Origin: Alphaproteobacteria bacterium
GTDB lineage: Bacteria; Pseudomonadota; Alphaproteobacteria; Caulobacterales; Parvularculaceae
Assembly: GCA_016125455.1 (NCBI GenBank)
Contig: WGLS01000013.1
Location: 62,001 to 126,000 of the forward strand
DNA length: 64,000 bases
Direction: 5' to 3'
Below the pieces are notes generated by a model. The model was not told the origin of the DNA. It ran no database searches and was given only the letters and a program-made list of their open reading frames with translations. Position numbers and translations under genes: made by a program. This document shows positions 6,235 through 31,968 of this stretch, in pieces; within the stretch, counting starts at the first letter, position 1; the number at the start of each line of letters is the position of its first letter.

Positions 6235-7617
6235 TCAATATGGACGATCGCCCTTAGCCGGTTCGAACGAACCCGATGGCAACAACGCCCATCGCGAGAT
6301 CATGATGGCGCCAACCGCCAACATGGCGAGGCCGGCGAACAGGAAGGCCCGTTCAGGCGGCGCGTTCGTGCGGGTGATGTAAAGGGTCGACATTGACCCG
6401 GGGATGGCGAAGACGGCGTTGGTCAGGACGGCAGTCGCCATGATCCGCGCCCGCACGCCGCCGGGCGCGCGTCGCTGCATTGCAGCCTGTAGCGGCGCGA
6501 TAAAGAGGCCCATGGAAGCGGACGCGAGAAGGAACCCGCCGCCGAGGACGAGACCCTCGCGAGTGGTGAAAAGGTCATCAATCGTAAAGGCGGCTTTGGC
6601 CGCCGACAGCGACGGCGCAATCAGATAGATCGCAATGGCGACGATGCCGGCTGCAATGATTGCCAGCGTCGATATGGCGAGTCCGTTCGACCGCTTTGAG
6701 ATCAGGGTCGCGCCGATCGCGCCCAGCCCGGCCCCTATCGCGAAGAGGGCGTTGAGCGCCGTCGCGGTCAATGCGTCGCCATTCATCGTATCCCGGGCGA
6801 AAAGCGGCAACGCGACGGTGACGGCCGTGGACAGAAAAAAGAACGCGCCGACGCCGACCATTGGCGCAGCCACGCCGGGGGCTTTGCGCGTTTCCGCCAG
6901 CATTCGCCAGGCAAGTCGGGGCCAATTGACGCTGAGGGCGAGGTCCGGCGCGTCCGGCGGGCGTTCGGTAAGTCGTCGGGCCGCGAGGAATCCGAGGCTG
7001 GATGCCGCAAGAACCACCGCCCCGACGAACAACCCGCCATTCGGCGCCACAATCAACGATCCGCCGACGGCGTATCCAATCAGGATCGCCGCAAAAAGGC
7101 CTGCATTGCAGATGCCGTTGCCACGGACGAGTTCGTCCATCTGGAGGTATTTCGGCATCGCGGCGATTCGGGCCGGCGAGAAGAATGCCGACTGCGAGCC
7201 CATGGCAAAGAACGCCAGGATCGCGAGCTCGCCGTTGCCGGTCGCGAATGCAAACGCCGATACGGCCATTAGCGAGACTTCGATAGCCTTCAGTCGACGG
7301 ATCAGGAGCGCCGGCGCGACCTTGTCGGCGACCTGGCCGGCAAGGGGCGACGACAGGAAAATCGCGAGGGGCAAGAGCGCTCCGATAATGGGAACGGCAT
7401 CATCGGAATTTTGCAGGAATGGGACGTAAATGACCCCATACGGGATGCCGATCAGCAGCGCCTGACGCGGGACATTGTCGGCGAACGCGCCAAGCGTCAC
7501 GGTCGTCCAGATCGGCCAGAAGCGTCCTTGCAGCGCCAGCGGCCGGGCCTGACCGGAACGCCCGGCAATAGCTTTTTGGTCTTCGATGGCGATTTCCCCA
7601 ATCCTTATCTTTACCAT
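6235..7617 (-). CDS. MFS transporter (LplT-like major facilitator)
   Basis: A 460-residue inner-membrane transporter with about twelve hydrophobic segments and a cytoplasmic loop (LADKVAPALLIRRLKA-like, near residue 110) typical of the major facilitator superfamily. The N-terminal half resembles the lysophospholipid transporter LplT and related acyltransferase-fused MFS proteins, but no acyltransferase domain is attached. The substrate is unknown. The frame extends upstream past 7617, but that part reads as Arg/Ser-rich non-protein sequence and would overlap the divergent protease gene; MVKIRIGE is the sensible start, though no strong ribosome binding site precedes it. About 100 bases separate it from the divergent protease/ligase unit, so a shared regulatory region is possible. 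Confidence 0.82.
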   Translation of the reverse strand: MVKIRIGEIAIEDQKAIAGRSGQARPLALQGRFWPIWTTVTLGAFADNVPRQALLIGIPYGVIYVPFLQNSDDAVPIIGALLPLAIFLSSPLAGQVADKVAPALLIRRLKAIEVSLMAVSAFAFATGNGELAILAFFAMGSQSAFFSPARIAAMPKYLQMDELVRGNGICNAGLFAAILIGYAVGGSLIVAPNGGLFVGAVVLAASSLGFLAARRLTERPPDAPDLALSVNWPRLAWRMLAETRKAPGVAAPMVGVGAFFFLSTAVTVALPLFARDTMNGDALTATALNALFAIGAGLGAIGATLISKRSNGLAISTLAIIAAGIVAIAIYLIAPSLSAAKAAFTIDDLFTTREGLVLGGGFLLASASMGLFIAPLQAAMQRRAPGGVRARIMATAVLTNAVFAIPGSMSTLYITRTNAPPERAFLFAGLAMLAVGAIMISRWALLPSGSFEPAKGDRPY

Positions 7618-7718: not shown

Positions 7719-8303
7719 ATGCAACCTGAATTGAACTTGCGTCGGCTTGTCGCCGCCTGCCTGCTCCTGCTTCCCTGCACGGCTCTTGCGGAAGAGGAAG
7801 ATGCAATGGGCGACGGCGTTCGTGGGGAGGTCATTACCCTAGGCTACCTCGAAGACGTGCGGGTCGGCGCGCTGGGGCTGTCTATGAAAGGGAAGCTCGA
7901 TACTGGCGCCGACACCAGTTCCGTTTACGCTCGCGATATCGAGCTTTACGAACGCAAGAAAAACGACAACTGGGTTCGGTTCCGGCTCGTCGGCAAGAAC
8001 GGCCGGTCGATACGTTATGACCAGAACGTAATCCGCTTTGCGAGCATCAAGGACAAGCGCGGCGGCCGTATCCGAAGACCTGTCATTCACCTGCCGATCT
8101 GCGTTGGCGGGAAGGAAGGCGTCGCGGAAATCAATCTCGCGGACCGATCTGAATTCGACTACGACATTCTTGTCGGCCGCGAATTCCTGGCGCACCGGAT
8201 CGCTGTGGATTCCTCTCGGACCTTCGCCTCCGACGAGCCTTGCACCGAAGAACAAGACGAGGAGCAGGACGGCGCCACGGCGGCCGGGCCCTCTGAGGAA
8301 TAG
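7719..8303 (+). CDS. Periplasmic RimK-associated retropepsin-like protease (PF05618-type 'ATP-dependent zinc protease')
   Basis: A 194-residue exported protein with a clear signal peptide (LVAACLLLLPCTALAEE, residues about 10-26). The body carries the aspartyl-protease-like motif KLDTGADTSSV near residues 61-71 and a second FDYDILVGREFL motif near 146, both typical of the family found beside RimK-type ligases. The family name claims zinc and ATP dependence, but the DTGA motif points to a retropepsin fold. The acidic C-terminal tail (residues about 174-194) is probably disordered. The ATG follows an excellent AAGGAAGGGG ribosome binding site, which rules out the longer upstream start. It is the first gene of a three-gene unit. 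Confidence 0.87.
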   Translation: MQPELNLRRLVAACLLLLPCTALAEEEDAMGDGVRGEVITLGYLEDVRVGALGLSMKGKLDTGADTSSVYARDIELYERKKNDNWVRFRLVGKNGRSIRYDQNVIRFASIKDKRGGRIRRPVIHLPICVGGKEGVAEINLADRSEFDYDILVGREFLAHRIAVDSSRTFASDEPCTEEQDEEQDGATAAGPSEE

Positions 8304-8318
8304 GGGCCGGTTGCGGCC

Positions 8319-9866
8319 ATGAAATCGAACGCCCTTCACGCCACTGCGCTTGCCATCTTCCTCATGCTCGTCGGCGCGTCGATATTTCTCGTCAAGGTCG
8401 TCCGCTTCGACTATCCGGTCCGTCCCGGAACGACGGCCTCGGTCTGGACGGTCGAAGCGTTCATCGATTTCCGCGCGCGGGACGAACCCGCCCGCATTGA
8501 CCTGTTCATCCCAACCCAGGCGGCCGAACGAGAAGTCACAGGCGAGCAATTCTACAATGGTCCGTTCGGCCTCAATCTGACCGGTGAAGCGCAAACCGGA
8601 AATCGCCGTGCGGTATGGTCGTATCGGTTTCCGAGCAATCGCAAGGTGTTGCGCTACTCTGCGCAAACCGTCGGCGAATCGCCGTCGACGCCTTTGCCGG
8701 CGCTGTTCAGGGAAACAGCGGACCGGGCAACGCCTTTTGAGGCGGATCCAGTCAAGCGACAGGCGTTTATCGTCTGGACCCAGAGTCTGCGGCGCCGCTC
8801 CGCTGACGATGCAACCTTTACGGAGCTTATGCTCACCGAGCTGTTCGGACCCGCTTCGCGTCGCGGCGAAGAAGCGGATGAACAGGAAGTGTTGCTAAAG
8901 CAGTTGCCGCCGCCGCTCGACCGGCTGGAACTGGCGCGGCAAACTCTCGCGTCCCAGGGGATCCAGGCGCGGATCGCCAATGGCGTGAAACTGATTGATG
9001 ACACGCGACGGGCGGAGACGATCAGCTGGCTTGAATACCGGGTCGGGAACGAAGACGGCCGGTTTTTTCCGGACGGGACGCCGTCGCGGTTCCTGACAAT
9101 CTGGCGCGGCGCCGATGGGCCATTGAAGGCGTCCGGCGTTTCCGAACTCGACTTTCAAATTGCGGTGTCCTCGGAGCGGTCTTCCGCCGCGGCGCTTGCC
9201 CGGCGAGCCGGCGCCAGGGACGCGCCAGTCGCGACGTTCTTTGGTTTTGGCGATCTGCCGCTAACGACGCAGCTTGTTTATAAGACGCTCGTAACAATCC
9301 CGATCGGGATTACGTTGCTGGTATTTCTGCGCCAGTTCGTCGGGGTGCAGACCCTTGGCACTTTCATGCCGGTCCTGATCGGGATCGCATTCCGCGAAAC
9401 TGCGCTCGTTAATGGGATTATTCTCTTTTCAGCACTGATCGCGATGGGGCTTGCCGTCCGTTTCTATCTGGAACGCCTGCAACTGCTGCTTGTCCCAAGA
9501 CTGGCTGTCGTCCTGATTTTTATCGTTATCGCGATGGCAGGCGTCACCATCCTGTTGACCGGTTCAAATCAGTCGATCGGCCTTTCCGTATCGTTGTTCC
9601 CTATGGTGATCATCACGATGACAATCGAACGGATGTCGATCATCTGGGAGGAGTCCTCCGCGAGCGCCGCCTTGAAGCAGGGCGTCGGGAGCCTCGTTGT
9701 CGCAAGCCTTACCTACCTTGTGATGTCCAATCCACATGTCGAATATCTAATGTACAATTTCCCGGAGCTTCTGTTCATTTTAATGGGAATGTGCGTATTG
9801 ATGGGCAGATACACTGGGCTTCGCCTAAGCGAACTCTGGCGATTCCGTGGTCTTGCGAATTCGTAA
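8319..9866 (+). CDS. UUP1-family 7TM protein with inactive transglutaminase-like periplasmic domain
   Basis: A 515-residue membrane protein. One helix at residues 7-28 is followed by a periplasmic region of about 285 residues that matches the inactive transglutaminase-like family, then a C-terminal block of about seven membrane spans starting near residue 318 (YKTLVTIPIGITLLVF). The family is known almost only from gene neighbourhoods with a RimK-related ATP-grasp ligase and a retropepsin-like protease, exactly the arrangement here. It starts 15 bases after the protease and its stop lies 16 bases before the ligase ATG, so one transcript is likely. The molecular role is not established; a transporter or sensor for a ligase-made peptide is a reasonable guess. 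Confidence 0.88.
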   Translation: MKSNALHATALAIFLMLVGASIFLVKVVRFDYPVRPGTTASVWTVEAFIDFRARDEPARIDLFIPTQAAEREVTGEQFYNGPFGLNLTGEAQTGNRRAVWSYRFPSNRKVLRYSAQTVGESPSTPLPALFRETADRATPFEADPVKRQAFIVWTQSLRRRSADDATFTELMLTELFGPASRRGEEADEQEVLLKQLPPPLDRLELARQTLASQGIQARIANGVKLIDDTRRAETISWLEYRVGNEDGRFFPDGTPSRFLTIWRGADGPLKASGVSELDFQIAVSSERSSAAALARRAGARDAPVATFFGFGDLPLTTQLVYKTLVTIPIGITLLVFLRQFVGVQTLGTFMPVLIGIAFRETALVNGIILFSALIAMGLAVRFYLERLQLLLVPRLAVVLIFIVIAMAGVTILLTGSNQSIGLSVSLFPMVIITMTIERMSIIWEESSASAALKQGVGSLVVASLTYLVMSNPHVEYLMYNFPELLFILMGMCVLMGRYTGLRLSELWRFRGLANS

Positions 9867-9882
9867 TGTTGCGGGTGTTCCG

Positions 9883-10914
9883 ATGATCAGTACATGGCGA
9901 AAACTTCGCGAAAAAGGCGTCATCGGCATCAACGAGCGCAATGTAATGTTCGTTTCCGCGAAGAATCCGCGCCGGTTCATGCGCCGGGTTGACGACAAGG
10001 TTGAAACCAAACGGCTTGCGGACATCGCCGGCATTCCGAACCCAGAGCTTTACGGCGTCATCGAGACCGCGCGGGACATGAAAGCGCTGCCGGCGCTGCT
10101 GGCGAAACCTGACGGCTGCGTCATCAAGCCGGCCTGTGGTTCGCAAGGCAAGGGCATTATCGTCATAGACGGGCCTCTTCGCGAAGGCTGGCGCCTGTCG
10201 AGCGGCAAACGAATTACGCGGGACGCGATCAACCACCACGTGAATAATATCCGCTCAGGGATGTATTCTCTTGGCGGACAGACCGACAAGGCGGTCATCG
10301 AGTACAGGGTCAAGTTTGACCCCGTGTTCGGAAGAATCTCATTCAAGGGCGTGCCCGATATCCGGGTCATCGTATTGAACGGCGTGCCGGCATTCGCCAT
10401 GCTGCGTCTTCCCACGGCCGAATCGGACGGCAAGGCGAACTTGCATCGTGGCGGCGTAGGCGTTGGCGTATCGATTGTGGATGGGACCACGCGCTGCGGC
10501 ATGCAGTTCGACCGTCAGGTCGTTGTGCATCCGGACACGGGCGAAACGCTGACCGGGATAACTGTTCCGCATTGGGATGACATTCTTGTAATGGCGGCTC
10601 GATCCTACGACGTGACTGGCCTTGGCTATATCGGGGTCGATGTTGTGCTTGACGAAAAGCGCGGTCCGCTACTGCTCGAATTGAACGGCCGGCCAGGCCT
10701 TTCAATCCAGATCGCCAATCAGCGCGGCTTACGGCGTCATCTGGCCGCGATCTCGGCGCTCGACGTCGCCGGCGCATCTCCGGAATCGCGTGTCCGACTG
10801 GCGCAAAAAGTCTACGGCGAAAGCTACGAAGGGGGCGCGCTTGCGCCGGCGCCCGTCAGCGGCAAGCCTGTGCTTGACGTCCTCGAAGGCGGCCTCGCCA
10901 GCGCCGCAGCCTGA
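9883..10914 (+). CDS. Alpha-L-glutamate ligase-like ATP-grasp protein (RimK-related)
   Basis: A 343-residue ATP-grasp enzyme predicted to form amide bonds between an amino acid and a carboxylate substrate with ATP. The opening REKGVIGINERNVMFV is typical of the RimK-related E-ligase family. Further in come the phosphate-binding loop CVIKPACGSQGKGI near residue 83 and the Mg-binding end LLLELNGRPGLSIQIAN near 263-279. A GTG 36 bases earlier would overlap the preceding gene; the ATG at 9883 gives the usual family N-terminus. No signal peptide is present, so catalysis is cytoplasmic, while the protease partner is periplasmic and the 7TM protein spans the membrane between them. The acceptor is unknown. 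Confidence 0.88.
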   Translation: MISTWRKLREKGVIGINERNVMFVSAKNPRRFMRRVDDKVETKRLADIAGIPNPELYGVIETARDMKALPALLAKPDGCVIKPACGSQGKGIIVIDGPLREGWRLSSGKRITRDAINHHVNNIRSGMYSLGGQTDKAVIEYRVKFDPVFGRISFKGVPDIRVIVLNGVPAFAMLRLPTAESDGKANLHRGGVGVGVSIVDGTTRCGMQFDRQVVVHPDTGETLTGITVPHWDDILVMAARSYDVTGLGYIGVDVVLDEKRGPLLLELNGRPGLSIQIANQRGLRRHLAAISALDVAGASPESRVRLAQKVYGESYEGGALAPAPVSGKPVLDVLEGGLASAAA

Positions 10915-10993
10915 CGCAATACCCTTCGGCTGACCAGCTTCTTTTGCCTCAATTCCCGCGGATTTGGCCTTGCGGACCGCGGCGAGAGACATC

Positions 10994-11022
10994 TTGCTTT
11001 GCATACCCCATGCCCCTATAGG
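10994..11022 (+). promoter_or_regulatory. Putative csoR promoter
   Basis: TTGCTT and TATAGG are separated by 17 bases and fit a sigma-70 promoter. The -10 element lies inside the operator palindrome, as expected for a CsoR-repressed promoter. The predicted transcript start would fall at or next to the csoR ATGATG, which implies a leaderless message. This is inferred from spacing only. Confidence 0.45.
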
Positions 11023-11026
11023 GTAT
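11010..11026. promoter_or_regulatory. CsoR-family operator
   Basis: The 17-base near-palindrome ATGCCCCTATAGGGTAT has the A/T-flanked C-tract and G-tract arms seen in CsoR/RcnR-family operators; one base (G at the third position) breaks perfect symmetry. A further ATACCCC half-like copy lies directly upstream at 11003-11009. It sits four bases before the repressor start codon, so binding would block transcription of the repressor and the three genes behind it. Confidence 0.72.
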
Positions 11027-11029
11027 GTG

Positions 11030-11308
11030 ATGATGAAACCGGATACCAAAGCTTCCGTCGGGAAGCGGCTTGCACGCATAGAAGGTCAAATTCGCGGCGT
11101 CGCGAAAATGATCGAAGAGGATCGGTATTGCATCGACGTCGTCCGGCAGGTGCAAGCGATCAAGGCGGCGCTGACGGGCCTTGAGGGCGTTATTATTGAC
11201 GACCACCTTGAGACCTGCGTCGAACATGCCCTGACCGGCGACAACATCGAGGCGCGCCGCGAAAAGGTCGAGGAACTTGTCGCCGTCCTTGGCGGGCGCA
11301 AGAAGTGA
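11030..11308 (+). CDS. csoR: CsoR/FrmR-family metal-sensing transcriptional repressor
   Basis: A 92-residue all-helical repressor of the CsoR/RcnR/FrmR family, which releases DNA when metal binds. The typical opening RLARIEGQIRGVAKMIEEDRYC and the DDHLETCV segment are present. The metal ligand set C34, H59, C63 matches the X-C-H-C fingerprint of Cu(I)-sensing CsoR rather than the nickel, cobalt or formaldehyde sensors. The start is at one of two adjacent ATGs, directly after the operator palindrome; the AGGG of the palindrome could also serve as ribosome binding site. Its stop overlaps the GTG start of the next gene, giving translational coupling. Copper as effector is an inference from the ligands. 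Confidence 0.9.
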   Translation: MMKPDTKASVGKRLARIEGQIRGVAKMIEEDRYCIDVVRQVQAIKAALTGLEGVIIDDHLETCVEHALTGDNIEARREKVEELVAVLGGRKK

Positions 11309-11958
11309 CGTATTCCAGGTCGCCCGCACTCATGGGCCTTGCGCTAGCATTGGCTTCTGGCCCGGCGGCGAACGCTCGGCCAGTGTCCTATGAAGGCGGT
11401 TGGACGTTGATCGAGGCGACCGATCGCCAATCGACGTCGCTGCTCGTCCACCACACCGTCGATCCGAAGTTCTCGATTGGCGTGCGGAGTGAATGGGACC
11501 GAAAGCAGGATTTCGTCCTGAACGGGGTTCAGGCCACGTATCTCGCGAAGCGTTGGTTCGGTGAAAATTACCAGGCCAATCTATACGTCTACGGCGGGGT
11601 CGGCGCGGCGACTGGCGTTGGCGCAAATCAGGCCGGAACAAACGCCGCTGGCTTTGTCGGCGTGATGGCGGATTGGGAAACGCGGCGCCTGTTCGCCTCC
11701 TACCGGGCCCGCGCGCTGGCGGCTGGGGATGTAGACTCCAGCTTCATGCAGGCGGCGCGCGTAGGTTTTGCGCCTTATGAAGGCGACACAGGCGATCTAC
11801 ATGCCTGGTTGATGGTCGAGGTTGATCACCGCCCTGACAATGCTGACGCCGTCGGCGTTACGCCGCTCGTTCGTTTCTTCAAAGGACCGGCGCTTCTCGA
11901 ACTTGGCTGGAGCGTGATCGATAATGAACCGCTGGCAAACTTTACGTATCGTTTCTGA
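11305..11958 (+). CDS. Exported, probably outer-membrane-associated protein of the metal operon
   Basis: A 217-residue protein with a short signal peptide (ALMGLALALASGPAANA, about residues 8-24). The rest alternates polar and hydrophobic residues, has many Tyr, Trp and Gly, and ends in YRF, a terminal phenylalanine typical of outer-membrane beta-barrels. I do not recognise the family. Translation starts at a GTG overlapping the csoR stop (GTGA). Placement between a metal-sensing repressor and a His-rich HMA protein implies a role in metal resistance or efflux. No Cys or His cluster is visible, so it is more likely a channel or structural component than a metal binder. Confidence 0.7.
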   Translation: MTYSRSPALMGLALALASGPAANARPVSYEGGWTLIEATDRQSTSLLVHHTVDPKFSIGVRSEWDRKQDFVLNGVQATYLAKRWFGENYQANLYVYGGVGAATGVGANQAGTNAAGFVGVMADWETRRLFASYRARALAAGDVDSSFMQAARVGFAPYEGDTGDLHAWLMVEVDHRPDNADAVGVTPLVRFFKGPALLELGWSVIDNEPLANFTYRF

Positions 11959-11970
11959 AAGGAACGCGAG

Positions 11971-12498
11971 ATGACCCGATGCATTGCCATTGCCGCTTTG
12001 GCAGTATTGACAACAGCGACGCCTGGTGCGGCTGCGCCGCACGAAGGCCATGCAGAGATTGCAGTGGAACGCGCGCACGCGTCTGAAGGCGATGCGATGC
12101 AGGGCGATCACGAGGGCCATGCAGATCATGGAAAAGGCGGGCATGGGCACGAACACGATCATGCCGAGACGTCGTCATCGGCCGATGATGCGCCTCGCGA
12201 CGTGGCGTTGATCGTCCGTACCGACGCAATTGTCGCGGCTATTGCAGGAGGCGGCGAGCCAGTTGTCGTCGACGTCCTCGGGGTCGTTTGCGATTTTTGC
12301 GCCAAAGCGATGAACAAGACATTCGGCAAACGGAAAGAAATTGCGGCCGTATACGTCGACCTCGACCTGAAGACCCTTAACCTGGTCATCGAGCCCGGCG
12401 CCGAACTGGATGACGCAATGATCGAGGAACTGGTCAGAAAGGCGGGCTACAAGACGTCAGCAATCCGCCGCGGCGCCGCCGCTCTAGGAGAAGGATGA
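11971..12498 (+). CDS. Periplasmic His-rich protein with C-terminal heavy-metal-associated (HMA) domain
   Basis: A 175-residue exported protein. A signal peptide (residues 1-22) is followed by a histidine- and acid-rich segment to about residue 70 (HEGHADHGKGGHGHEHDH and neighbours), a low-affinity metal sponge. The C-terminal domain (about residues 95-168) has the HMA fold pattern with the binding loop GVVCDFCAK in place of the usual GMTCXXC. The protein probably binds Cu(I) or a similar soft metal in the periplasm and passes it to a partner. It starts 12 bases after the envelope-protein gene with an AAAGGAACG ribosome binding site, and the next gene begins one base after its stop. Confidence 0.84.
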   Translation: MTRCIAIAALAVLTTATPGAAAPHEGHAEIAVERAHASEGDAMQGDHEGHADHGKGGHGHEHDHAETSSSADDAPRDVALIVRTDAIVAAIAGGGEPVVVDVLGVVCDFCAKAMNKTFGKRKEIAAVYVDLDLKTLNLVIEPGAELDDAMIEELVRKAGYKTSAIRRGAAALGEG

Positions 12499-12499
12499 C

Positions 12500-12880
12500 A
12501 TGCGATTGATGATGCGCGAGGCCGCGGCCCCAACGATCGCTCTGTTTGCCAGCCTGTCGACTCTGGTGTGCTGCGCCTTGCCGGCGCTGCTTGTCACGAT
12601 CGGCGCCGGGGCGGTGATGGCCGGTCTTGCGGCAAACGTGCCGGGGCTGGTCTGGCTGACGGTCCACAAGGCGGCGCTGTTTATCGTCGCCGGTGCCTTG
12701 CTCCTCGGCGCCGGCGTCGCCAAGTGGTCGGTACGGAACGCCCCATGTCCGATTGATCCTGACCAGGCCCGCGCGTGCATGCGCATGCGTCGTGCCGGCT
12801 CGTTCATCCTCGGCGTCGCCGCTGTCGCCTATGTGGTTGGCGGCTTCTTCGCGTTCTTCGCCGCTGACGTCCTGCTCTGA
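12500..12880 (+). CDS. MerT-like small inner-membrane metal transporter
   Basis: A 126-residue protein with three hydrophobic segments. The first carries the vicinal cysteine pair in LVCCALPALLVTIGAG (about residues 22-37), the hallmark of MerT/MerF-type mercury and related metal transport proteins. Two more Cys lie in the loop NAPCPIDPDQARACMRM. No mercuric reductase or merR/merP is present, so mercury resistance is unlikely to be the full story. The start has an AGGAGAAGG ribosome binding site that overlaps the end of the HMA gene, so both are translated from one transcript. It is the last gene of the operon. Confidence 0.78.
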   Translation: MRLMMREAAAPTIALFASLSTLVCCALPALLVTIGAGAVMAGLAANVPGLVWLTVHKAALFIVAGALLLGAGVAKWSVRNAPCPIDPDQARACMRMRRAGSFILGVAAVAYVVGGFFAFFAADVLL

Positions 12881-29333: not shown

Positions 29334-30728
29334 ATGTCCATGCTCATCTGGATCATTGCCTTATATGTCCTCGCCCAGATTGCGATCTCCGCATGGGTTG
29401 CGCGCCGCACCAGGACGGATGCCGACTATCTTGTCGCCGGCCGTCGGCTCGGCGTTTTCCCGGTCGGCATGTCTCTCTTTGCAACATGGTTCGCCGCTGA
29501 GAGCGTTATCGCCACGTCTGCAGAAACCGCAATGAATGGGCTCGCTGGCGCCCGGATAGAGCCGTTCGCGTTCGGTCTCGGAATTCTATTGCTGGGCCTT
29601 TTCGTCGCCAAGGAGATCCGGAAAGGCGGGCACATGACGCTTGCGGATTATATTGGAGCGCGCTTTGGCGTCGCGGCTGAAACGCTAAGCGCTCTTGCGA
29701 TCGCGCTAAGCGGCACGGTATGGGCGGCGGCGCAGTTGTACGCACTGGCGACGATCATCGCCGGCGCCGTGGGAACCGGCTTCCTCCCGGCCCTCGTTGC
29801 GGCTACGGCGGTTGTGCTCGTCTACACGCTGATCGGCGGCTTGATGGGCGATATCGCGACGGATATCATCCAGGGCGCGGTCCTCGTTGTCGGCGTCCTT
29901 ATTCTTTTCTTCCTGATACTGAGCGCGTCGGGCGGCATAGGCGCCGCGATAGACGCCGTTCCCCCGGCCCGGCTGAATTTCACCGCGCCAGGCGAGAGTA
30001 TCCTTGATCAGATCGAAATTTGGCTCATCCCGATTTTCGCGTCGATTGTAGCGCAAGAAGCGATTTCCCGCACCCTCGCTGCGCGGACCCCGGAGATAGC
30101 CCGCAATGGCGCAGTTCTTGGATCGGCGATCTATGTGGTCGTCGGCCTGGTGCCGGTGATGTTTGGCCTCTTTGCTCCGCAGCTCGACCTGGCGCTTGGC
30201 GAGGGCGATCAGTTCCTTCCAAGCCTCGCCGAGGCGCTTCTGCCATCCTGGGCGTATGTGGTCTTCACCGGCGCCCTGTTGTCCGCGATTCTGTCGTCGG
30301 TAGATTCGGCGCTGCTTGCCGTTTCGGCGGTCGCGACGGAAACCGGCTACAGACGGTTTCGTCCCCGGACAACGCCGGAGCAAAGTCTCGTGGTCGCGCG
30401 CCTGGCAACCACGATTGCCGGTCTCGTCGCTTTCGCCGTTGCAGCGTCCGGCGAAAGCCTGCGCGAGATCGTACTTTCCGCGGCGTCCGTCGGCGGCGTC
30501 CTCGCGGCGCCAATACTCCTGACAATCGTCAGTCAGGGGAAGTTTGGCGGACCGATTGCAGCGACCGCATCCATCGCGATCCAGATCATTTGTCTCGGGG
30601 TGCTTGATTGGACGCTTGGCATTTCCGGCGCAGTCGTCATCACGTTTGCCGCAGGCTTTGCCACCTATATCGGGTTGGCGCTTGCCGCGTTCCTCGCAAG
30701 GTCGGTCAATTCCGCGTCAGCGGCGTAG
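29334..30728 (+). CDS. Second sodium:solute symporter (SSS family)
   Basis: A 464-residue inner-membrane symporter. The N-terminus has the family pattern RTRTDADYLVAGRRLGVFPVGMSLFATWF, and the sodium-binding helix reads FTGALLSAILSSVDSALLAVSAV near residue 315. About 13 spans are visible. It is divergent from the DUF3311-SSS pair across 232 bases and is not a close copy of the first symporter, so the two probably carry different substrates. No DUF3311 or DUF485 partner is attached. The 3' end overlaps the convergent TPR gene by 23 bases. Confidence 0.9.
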   Translation: MSMLIWIIALYVLAQIAISAWVARRTRTDADYLVAGRRLGVFPVGMSLFATWFAAESVIATSAETAMNGLAGARIEPFAFGLGILLLGLFVAKEIRKGGHMTLADYIGARFGVAAETLSALAIALSGTVWAAAQLYALATIIAGAVGTGFLPALVAATAVVLVYTLIGGLMGDIATDIIQGAVLVVGVLILFFLILSASGGIGAAIDAVPPARLNFTAPGESILDQIEIWLIPIFASIVAQEAISRTLAARTPEIARNGAVLGSAIYVVVGLVPVMFGLFAPQLDLALGEGDQFLPSLAEALLPSWAYVVFTGALLSAILSSVDSALLAVSAVATETGYRRFRPRTTPEQSLVVARLATTIAGLVAFAVAASGESLREIVLSAASVGGVLAAPILLTIVSQGKFGGPIAATASIAIQIICLGVLDWTLGISGAVVITFAAGFATYIGLALAAFLARSVNSASAA

Positions 30729-31968
30729 AGGAGTGATGCGAATCAATCGGCCGATGCGCGCTTGTCTGCGCCGCGGCGAAGGTTCTGGCCTCTTGGAAAA
30801 GGCCGCGTTGCGCATGGCTGCCGCCTATAAGGTGAAGGTGGGGTTCAGCGGCGGCAAATGCCGCAGCGGCCGCTGCAAGGTCGCCGCGGGCGAAGGCAAT
30901 CGCGCCATCCGCCGCCGGCAGGAGCGCCAATTTCCAAGTAGAAGCCGCCGGCCCATTGAGCGCCATGGCGTGCGCGCCGATCCTGTTTCTCATCGCATCC
31001 GCCTCGCCCGGCTCGCCGGCCCGTGCGAGAGCGTAGAGGTAATGAACGTCATGAAAAGGAAAGATATGCTCGTCGGCGCGCGCCCGCGCTTGCGACACGA
31101 CGGGCGCCCAGCGATCGCCCACGTCTATGCCGCGCATCTCCAGGCGCCAGAGCATTGAAACTGCGCCGATCTGTTCCTGGGGAAACTCTGGCCAGGCGCC
31201 CCACAGGCGCTCGTCGAAGATGGCGAGCGCGCCCGCGTCGTCGCCGGCGTTCAGATGGAACAGCGCCGTGTGCCACCAGTTGTGATCTCGAATGAAGACG
31301 CCCTTGGCGTCCCACGTGTGGGCGCATCGGGCCATCCATCGCGCGCCTTTTTCAGGATGACCGCGCGTTTCGTGGACGTGCGCGATTGCGTGATGCGCCC
31401 AGGCGTCGTCGATGGCGATTTCACATGCGCGCAGGCCTTCCGCCATGGCGGCGTCGAGGTCATGGTTCTGTTCAAGCGCAAAAGCGATCATTCCGTGGGC
31501 GTACGGACGGCCCTCATGGGCGATCCGCGCACGTCGCGCAAGGCGCAGAAGCGCAGGCTGATCGCCGAGATTGAAGGCGTGATACTGGGCCCATTTGATG
31601 GCGCACAGGTCGGCTGGCCAGCGAACCGATAACTCGTCAAGGTGTCCGAGAGCCCAATGGAAATCCTTGTTGGCCCAAGCGTCGACGGCCGCACAAAAGA
31701 GGCGCTCGCGCTCGCTTGCCGACGAACCTGCCCGCATCCGTTCGAGATACGGACGCGCATTGGTCCAGCCTTCGGCGCCTTCGAATGCGAGATGAAGCGC
31801 GGCGGCGTGCGCATTGATCAAGGGGGCGTCAGGCGCGGCATCAGCGACGGCGAACAGATCCCGAAGTCTCGCCCCGTAGGAGAGAAACTCCGTCACGTAG
31901 GCGTCATACCCGCGTGCAGTGGCCCCATCAGCGGCGGTGATAGTCAGGTCGGATGCATCTCGTGCCAT
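30706..31968 (-). CDS. TTC38-like tetratricopeptide repeat protein
   Basis: A 420-residue soluble helical protein matching the TTC38 family, which exists in bacteria and animals with no settled function. Typical segments are FHWALGHLDELSVRWPADLCAIKWAQ (near residue 105), HGMIAFALEQNHDLDAAM, DAWAHHAIAHVHETRGHPEKG, WWHTALFHLN and HDVHYLYALARAG. The repeats are rich in His and Trp. No signal peptide is visible, so it is cytoplasmic. It stands alone on its strand between the BI-1 gene terminator and the convergent symporter. Confidence 0.88.
   Translation of the reverse strand: MARDASDLTITAADGATARGYDAYVTEFLSYGARLRDLFAVADAAPDAPLINAHAAALHLAFEGAEGWTNARPYLERMRAGSSASERERLFCAAVDAWANKDFHWALGHLDELSVRWPADLCAIKWAQYHAFNLGDQPALLRLARRARIAHEGRPYAHGMIAFALEQNHDLDAAMAEGLRACEIAIDDAWAHHAIAHVHETRGHPEKGARWMARCAHTWDAKGVFIRDHNWWHTALFHLNAGDDAGALAIFDERLWGAWPEFPQEQIGAVSMLWRLEMRGIDVGDRWAPVVSQARARADEHIFPFHDVHYLYALARAGEPGEADAMRNRIGAHAMALNGPAASTWKLALLPAADGAIAFARGDLAAAAAAFAAAEPHLHLIGGSHAQRGLFQEARTFAAAQTSAHRPIDSHHSSTPLTRN

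Follow-up and report, generated by a model that had tools for sequence, protein, structure and literature searches.

An rloABC operon in a Parvularculaceae-related alphaproteobacterium and the gene arrangements around its RloB-RloC core

The window analysed here is a 64,000-nucleotide stretch of DNA (contig WGLS01000013.1 of assembly GCA_016125455.1, positions 62,001 to 126,000 of the forward strand) from a Parvularculaceae-related alphaproteobacterium. It carries an rloABC operon that is a distant relative of the operon described in 2025 in Pseudomonas aeruginosa (PMC12239564). The three genes lie on a single strand in the order A-B-C, with gaps of 15 bases between rloA and rloB and 16 bases between rloB and rloC. 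Their coordinates and their Pfam and TIGR matches (Table 1) confirm the triplet of secreted retropepsin-like protease, inactive-transglutaminase/7TM (seven-transmembrane) protein and RimK-related ligase that a first-pass annotation, made by a model from the sequence, had proposed. An in-frame GTG at 9847 provides an alternative start for rloC, which would extend its product to 355 amino acids and cause the gene to overlap rloB. When compared with the curated NCBIfam models of RloA and RloB, the window proteins fall below the cut-offs, with 87.2 bits for RloA1 (cut-off 280), 103.1 for RloA2 (250), 90.8 for RloA3 (210) and 293.7 for RloB (NF052267, 900). Judged by these scores, the window RloA and RloB are distant homologues and not NCBIfam's named proteins.

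Table 1. Genes of the rlo operon in the window and the divergent gene beside it
Feature	Product	Position	Strand	Model matches
rloA homologue	Secreted retropepsin-like aspartic protease, 194 amino acids	7719..8303	+	PF05618 E 8.4e-28, 97.4 bits
rloB homologue	515 amino acids: N-terminal transmembrane helix, periplasmic inactive transglutaminase domain, 7TM domain, conserved C-terminal tail	8319..9866	+	PF14400 E 1.3e-22, PF14402 E 1.4e-85
rloC homologue	RimK-related ATP-grasp ligase, 343 amino acids	9883..10914	+	TIGR02291 388.9 bits (cut-off 314.2), PF14397 E 6e-81
Divergent gene	Major facilitator superfamily (MFS) protein, probably outside the system	6235..7617	-	MFS_1 E 4.5e-14

The N-terminus of the window RloA reads by eye as a signal peptide spanning about residues 1-25 and ending in PCTALA, and the catalytic residue is Asp61 within the KLDTGADTSSV motif. 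Both features had been picked out by the first-pass annotation and are borne out by this reading together with the PF05618 match. The residues Arg120 and Arg143 align with Arg114 and Arg137 of P. aeruginosa RloA, an equivalence drawn from motif context, solved relatives (the best of which are 9g59 and 9g58) and the published description (PMC12239564). In an alignment of 56 RloAs, from which two RimB-like sequences (L103 and L122) had been excluded beforehand, Asp61 and Arg120 are present in all 56 and Arg143 in 55. The window genome encodes this single secreted RloA plus a single RimB-like PF05618 protein that adjoins a RimK. The latter two form a separate RimB-RimK pair, in which RimK scores 465.9 bits (cut-off 331) and RimB scores 119.4 bits (below the cut-off of 200).

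A hydropathy scan of the window RloB identifies a hydrophobic segment at residues 10-28, nothing above threshold up to about residue 318, and then a multi-span C-terminal domain. The layout of one helix followed by a multi-span domain therefore stands as first read, although the exact count of seven spans is not resolved by this simple scan, and '7TM' is used here as the name of the Pfam family. The transglutaminase triad is lost, with Pro199 and Ile235 occupying the Cys and His positions. Among the best-conserved parts of the protein is the C-terminal tail, which is likely cytoplasmic and in which G496, G500, E505, R508 and F509 are invariant among 46 sequences. A phmmer search against solved structures, with E values up to 1, yielded no sequence relative of RloB. 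In a tree of the 7TM domain, the window protein groups with members of its family and order in a clade of ten rows with support of 100/100, and it is 23-37% identical to RloBs outside its closest clade in an alignment without the P. aeruginosa protein. One representative from the window's family (L117) and two from its order (L099 and L118) are placed outside the ten-row clade, and therefore the operon has a complicated history in this order. The possibility that the 7TM domain arose by internal duplication is not supported, because its half-versus-half score of 12.4 is reached by 12 of 60 column shuffles.

The alignment of 64 RloCs has eight invariant positions (Lys39, Lys82, Gly86, Asp159, Arg161, Arg175, Asn186 and His188), and Asp253, Glu266 and Asn268 are found in 63 of the 64 sequences. 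All of these residues except Arg175 are common to the window genome's own RimK, and it is the alignment to RimK that suggests their catalytic role. On this evidence the RloC active site is intact, and not degenerate as the first-pass annotation had allowed it might prove to be. Sequence searches against solved structures weakly match RloC to alpha-glutamate ligases and cyanophycin synthases.

RloB and RloC occur together wherever either was found in the genome survey. Among 398 Pseudomonadota genomes, RloB (PF14402) is present in 65, and RloC (TIGR02291, at least 250 bits) is present in exactly those 65, with 58 exceeding the model cut-off. The best RloC-model score listed among the RloB-less genomes is 55.8 bits. 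Wider flanks were compared at 64 loci from 46 of the 65 genomes, 13 family genomes and five named contigs, with L006 and L116 lying on the same contig. At all 64 loci, rloC comes directly downstream of rloB on the same strand, with the two genes less than 60 bases apart or overlapping, and at 56 loci an RloA is encoded no more than 150 bases upstream of RloB. The eight loci without an adjoining RloA comprise L007 at a contig end, L087 (whose genome has a secreted-looking but unlinked RloA at L144), four loci from a family designated f38 and two from a family designated f8. Of the 65 RloB genomes, 61 encode a PF05618 protein at some location, and the remaining four are all from f38.

Within the window's own family RloB is patchy, with 20 of 62 genomes carrying it. 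The A-B-C order is present in 19 of these 20, and the locus in the twentieth runs off its contig. Because this order recurs across the family and RloA sits upstream at 56 of 64 loci, the arrangement is not a product of chance. Among the 22 most widespread clusters of open reading frames at rlo loci, only RloA, RloB and RloC span more than four groups, apart from one cluster of frames that lie opposite or across the rlo genes. Named relatives of the window RloB come from Marinicaulis/Parvularculaceae metagenome-assembled genomes (seven loci, one recorded as Alphaproteobacteria only). RloB-like proteins also appear in two of 72,556 plasmid records, from Legionella adelaidensis (54 kb) and Aeromonas caviae (a 4.9 Mb record). 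The L. adelaidensis gene lies at 29843-31360 of NZ_LR134414.1, and its product shows 33% identity. At 20 loci around PF05618 proteins located away from RloB, there are RimK-adjacent and lone copies with no common theme. Two of the loci examined (L157:2043-3506 and L161:2028-3446) carry RimB-RimK fusions in which PF05618 is followed by Rimk_N and the RimK ATP-grasp domain in a single frame, which parallels the partnership of protease and ligase.

Most loci encode an RloB with an inactive transglutaminase domain accompanied by RloA. The f38 family departs from this arrangement. Genome sizes in this family are about 2 Mb, with several assemblies incomplete, and PF14402 is found in 5 of 78 genomes of its order. 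The f38 RloB fits the active transglutaminase core (PF01841 E 1.6e-16 for L101), and the triad Cys and His are present in 4 of the 46 aligned RloBs, all from f38, with identical motifs in a fifth f38 protein. The five operons with an intact Cys-His-Asp RloB (L101:5474-11696, L102, L123, L124 and L147) have no RloA. No PF05618 match is found in four of the five genomes, whose completeness is 88 to 98%, and the sole PF05618 protein of the fifth is a RimB without a signal peptide that adjoins RimK. At all five loci, a gene on the 3′ side of rloC encodes a tetratricopeptide repeat (TPR) protein with an N-terminal hydrophobic segment. These proteins share 40-72% mutual identity; one is cut by a contig end and three were covered by the Pfam scan. 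The TPR gene is followed by a barrel-like gene at all four loci where this region is readable, with products that are 34-79% identical and whose best Pfam match is SlipAM (E 0.043). A gene for a small membrane protein lies just 5′ of the operon at four of the five loci (not L123), and the two that were scanned match PepSY_TM below its cut-off. Separately, four RloB-less genomes of f38 encode proteins that are about 1080 residues long and contain a pair of CapC-like (PF14102) units (L138:8486-11725 and L139-L141), and at L138 a response-regulator gene lies immediately upstream.

A second departure is found in the alphaproteobacterial family f8, where PF14402 occurs in 9 of 249 genomes. At nine loci in eight genomes, a short RloB of about 250-400 residues that lacks the periplasmic domain is followed by RloC. 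The gene directly 5′ of the short rloB encodes a protein ending in Phe in all nine cases, and its end, stop codon included, extends 11-23 bases into the longest rloB frame in eight of them and further in L187. The six upstream proteins whose N-termini were read have signal-like sequences, and Pfam gives weak matches to barrel families, from which we infer that the gene product is a barrel. Such a barrel-like gene is directly upstream at nine of nine short-RloB loci and at no other rlo locus compared. One genome (G666) contains two separate short-RloB/RloC pairs (L182 and L183), each with its own upstream barrel-like gene. In G148 and G192, the two f8 genomes scanned genome-wide, there is one PF05618 protein each, without a signal peptide and adjoining RimK.

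The tenth f8 locus (G671, L188:3478-6676) encodes a 7TM domain fused to an ATP-grasp domain of the D-Ala-D-Ala-ligase type (PF14402 E 1e-16, PF07478 E 1.5e-13), and therefore the C-terminus of its 7TM domain must be cytoplasmic. A HlyD-family gene overlaps the fusion gene upstream, and no separate RloC is encoded within the stretch read. Downstream lies a gene whose product may be a serine hydrolase (FSH1 E 0.057, which does not reach the cut-off).

These arrangements follow a pattern in which the inactive transglutaminase domain accompanies RloA, the active domain is found without RloA, and the bare 7TM form has neither. The simplest reading is that the transglutaminase domain was an ancestral processing enzyme whose cutting function was later taken over by RloA. 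This reading draws on two clades, and the 7TM tree is long-branched and does not settle the direction of change.

Published experiments bear on the function of the operon. P. aeruginosa RloA cuts chains of 8 or 10 consecutive glutamates but not chains of 6 or fewer, and its catalytic and key poly-Glu-binding residues are required in vivo (PMC12239564). Loss of all three P. aeruginosa RloA proteases is harmful in hypo-osmotic medium, and this harm is relieved when rloB or rloC is deleted as well; rlo mutants also show phenotypes in cell shape and towards cell-wall antibiotics (PMC12239564). A paper on flagellar mutants that have raised exopolysaccharide lists insertions in PA1766, PA1767 and PA1768 from a suppressor screen (PMC7314104), and PA1767 is mutated in four ceftazidime-evolved mutants (PMC10187892). 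In Shewanella, loss of the inactive-transglutaminase gene leads to vesicle overproduction (PMC12096838). A gene related to alpha-L-glutamate ligases has negative fitness values in tables for chromate and uranium (PMC5554334).

On balance, we favour a model in which RloC makes an acidic peptide polymer, RloB moves this product outward and RloA cuts it. Cytoplasmic RloC would use ATP to join amino acids, most likely alpha-linked glutamates as in RimK, to yield an acidic oligo- or polypeptide that might be free or attached to a small primer. The 7TM domain of RloB accompanies RloC throughout, and RloB would carry the product across the inner membrane, where its periplasmic inactive transglutaminase domain would receive it. 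Secreted RloA would then cut the chain in the periplasm and thereby hold its length or amount at a level that the cell wall and the osmotic balance can tolerate. The G671 fusion and the RloB-RloC pairing suggest that the 7TM domain handles the product of a ligase, whereas the barrel-like and HlyD adaptor genes suggest that the product goes outward. For the common form of the operon, the published chemistry and genetics of RloA (PMC12239564) point to cutting of a poly-Glu-like chain in the periplasm. Glutamate as the substrate, a polymer as the product and RloB as the transporter are each what we infer from this evidence. The first-pass annotation had regarded the product and acceptor as not established, which is partly out of date now that poly-Glu cleavage by RloA has been published (PMC12239564). 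Its proposal that ligase, 7TM protein and protease act on a single product fits both the published genetics and the present comparisons.

A broader reading is more tentative, and we would give it somewhat less than an even chance. RloC and the 7TM domain might together act as synthase and exporter at the inner membrane and so form the core of a class of envelope polymer machines not described before, which would produce poly-alpha-glutamate or another acidic poly-amino acid and be fitted with swappable outer-envelope modules. Most Proteobacteria having the core would combine it with secreted RloA and a dead transglutaminase domain, one family would use a live transglutaminase with TPR and barrel-like proteins, another would use the bare 7TM domain with a barrel-like protein, and one genome would use a fused 7TM-ligase with a HlyD adaptor. 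In the window version, the product would be a periplasmic polymer trimmed by RloA.

Several points weigh against these proposals. To our knowledge, no transport or ligase activity has been reported for any RloB or RloC. RloC scores 47.5 bits against the RimK family model TIGR00768, far below the cut-off of 143.4, and therefore its glutamate specificity is assigned by analogy. The G671 fusion partner is a D-Ala-D-Ala-ligase-type domain and not RloC itself, and when the 398 genomes were searched with the G671 7TM part, there were matches in 60 of the 65 RloB genomes and in one stretch interrupted by many stops, but no second fusion. The variant architectures are confined to two families and one genome, which corresponds to few independent events, and the barrel calls in f38 and f8 rest on weak or no Pfam matches. 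In the genome searches behind the co-occurrence, only the best few candidates per genome were scored. AlphaFold2 models of RloB have mean pLDDT (predicted local distance difference test) values of 40.9 from a single sequence and 48.4 from an eight-row alignment, which is too poor for fold comparison. A relationship of the 7TM domain to CapC/PgsC, prompted by shared motif shapes, is not supported, since the probability from hhalign does not exceed about 3%, with a CapC profile that is shallow (four similar proteins of one family, Neff (effective number of sequences) about 1.6). Likewise, PF14102 is absent from the families matched by 46 RloBs at E values up to 10, a search in which HMMER filters drop most weak matches. 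Finally, Pfam labels the RloC family PF14397 as 'sugar-transfer associated' ATP-grasp.

This label is consistent with an alternative, which we consider unlikely, in which RloC adds an amino acid to a precursor, be it a lipid-linked sugar or a precursor of the cell wall or of exopolysaccharide, and RloB presents or flips the decorated molecule. The true substrate of RloA would then be a peptide decoration, and poly-Glu cleavage in vitro would be incidental. The window and the same-genus locus L009 both have genes for a bacterial sugar transferase and a UDP-sugar dehydrogenase upstream and for BacA (undecaprenyl-pyrophosphate phosphatase family) downstream. The appearance of PA1766-PA1768 insertions in an exopolysaccharide paper (PMC7314104) and the cell-shape and cell-wall-antibiotic phenotypes (PMC12239564) would fit as well. 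However, no such neighbours are present among the 22 most widespread clusters at rlo loci. Moreover, RloA Arg mutants that are weak in poly-Glu cleavage also fail to complement in vivo (PMC12239564).

Rather improbable, in our estimation, is a role for RloB as a sensor or scaffold that controls RloC from the far side of the membrane through an inactive transglutaminase domain able to bind the product or a signal from the wall. Dead enzyme domains are generally plausible as binding modules, and the conserved, likely cytoplasmic tail of RloB could touch RloC. However, short RloBs without the periplasmic domain are still paired with RloC, and so the core job cannot be sensing by this domain. A pure sensor also leaves unexplained how the product of a cytoplasmic ligase would reach periplasmic RloA.

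The first-pass annotation had further suggested that the divergent MFS protein could add export. As a fourth member of the system this protein is very unlikely, since its gene, although its ATG (7617) lies 101 bases from rloA and a homologue is kept in the sole rlo-bearing genome of the same genus (G048, L009), has no homologue at the other rlo loci compared (tblastn with E up to 1e-4 against flanks of at most about 6 kb, which are shorter at contig ends). Because it is kept beside rlo within the genus only, the MFS gene is probably unlinked to the rlo system. Among protein families, the one it resembles most is the MFS part of acyl-[ACP]-phospholipid O-acyltransferase (NF005291 E 1.3e-60, with a score well short of the cut-off; ACP, acyl carrier protein). 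A related MFS-acyltransferase fusion gene precedes a lone secreted-looking RloA by 6 bases in G254 (L144:1-2466), a genome outside the window's class, and this arrangement weakly keeps an MFS-RloA association alive.

On the other flank, the region 10964-12880 between rloC and the BacA gene (12966) encodes a PF02583 repressor that senses metal, a small membrane protein and two proteins without a family assignment, of which one is weakly CopZ-like. Because BacA directly follows rloC in L009, this cluster was probably either inserted in the window or lost in L009.

The window operon is an ordinary member, from a new lineage, of a recently described operon, and the comparative pattern around its core is the part of greater interest. 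What is new is the co-occurrence of RloB with RloC, their adjacency at 64 of 64 loci and the exchange of envelope modules around this core. Mutated rlo genes appear in Pseudomonas work on exopolysaccharide, ceftazidime, biofilms and osmotic conditions (PMC12239564, PMC7314104, PMC10187892). Where the function had stood as unknown, the pairing of ligase and membrane protein, the ligase fusion next to an export adaptor and the exchange of modules now allow a concrete and testable claim, namely that RloB exports the product of RloC. If this is true, many Gram-negative bacteria carry an acidic peptide polymer in their envelope for which no description was found in the literature searched. The titles and abstracts listed in searches of open-licence literature likewise contained no description of RloB as an exporter or of architectural variants of rlo. 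A 2009 review of amidoligases by Iyer et al. may cover some of these associations, and we claim no priority for the variants.

Among known systems, the f38 operons resemble exporters of the PgaA type, which combine TPR and outer-membrane barrel parts, in having a TPR protein and a barrel-like gene; the PgaA model gives 52.2 bits, far below its cut-off of 366.65. The same two genes also recall polymer exporters of the AlgK/AlgE type. In both cases the resemblance is one of parts only, and the window has neither a TPR nor a barrel gene. The poly-gamma-glutamate system PgsBC(A)/CapBC(A) pairs an amide ligase with a multi-span membrane protein, which is similar to the logic proposed here for rlo. 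Its ligase is of a different kind from RloC, and homology of the RloB 7TM domain to CapC is not supported by the profile comparisons made. The RimB-RimK system for glutamylation of ribosomal protein S6 shares related protease and ATP-grasp proteins and the opposing logic of ligase and protease, but its protease is cytoplasmic, without a signal peptide and without a membrane partner. The window locus is not RimB-RimK, because the N-terminus encoded by gene 1 of the triplet is signal-like and a separate RimB-RimK pair is located elsewhere in the genome. Most organisms with RloABC carry a separate rim locus according to PMC12239564, and the window genome, with an rlo operon plus a separate rim locus, agrees. 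The P. aeruginosa rloABC operon has the same three families in the same order, with a secreted RloA that carries the catalytic Asp and poly-Glu-binding Arg residues, an inactive transglutaminase domain and an ATP-grasp RloC, and it differs in having three RloA paralogues where the window genome has one secreted RloA and one RimB-like protein.

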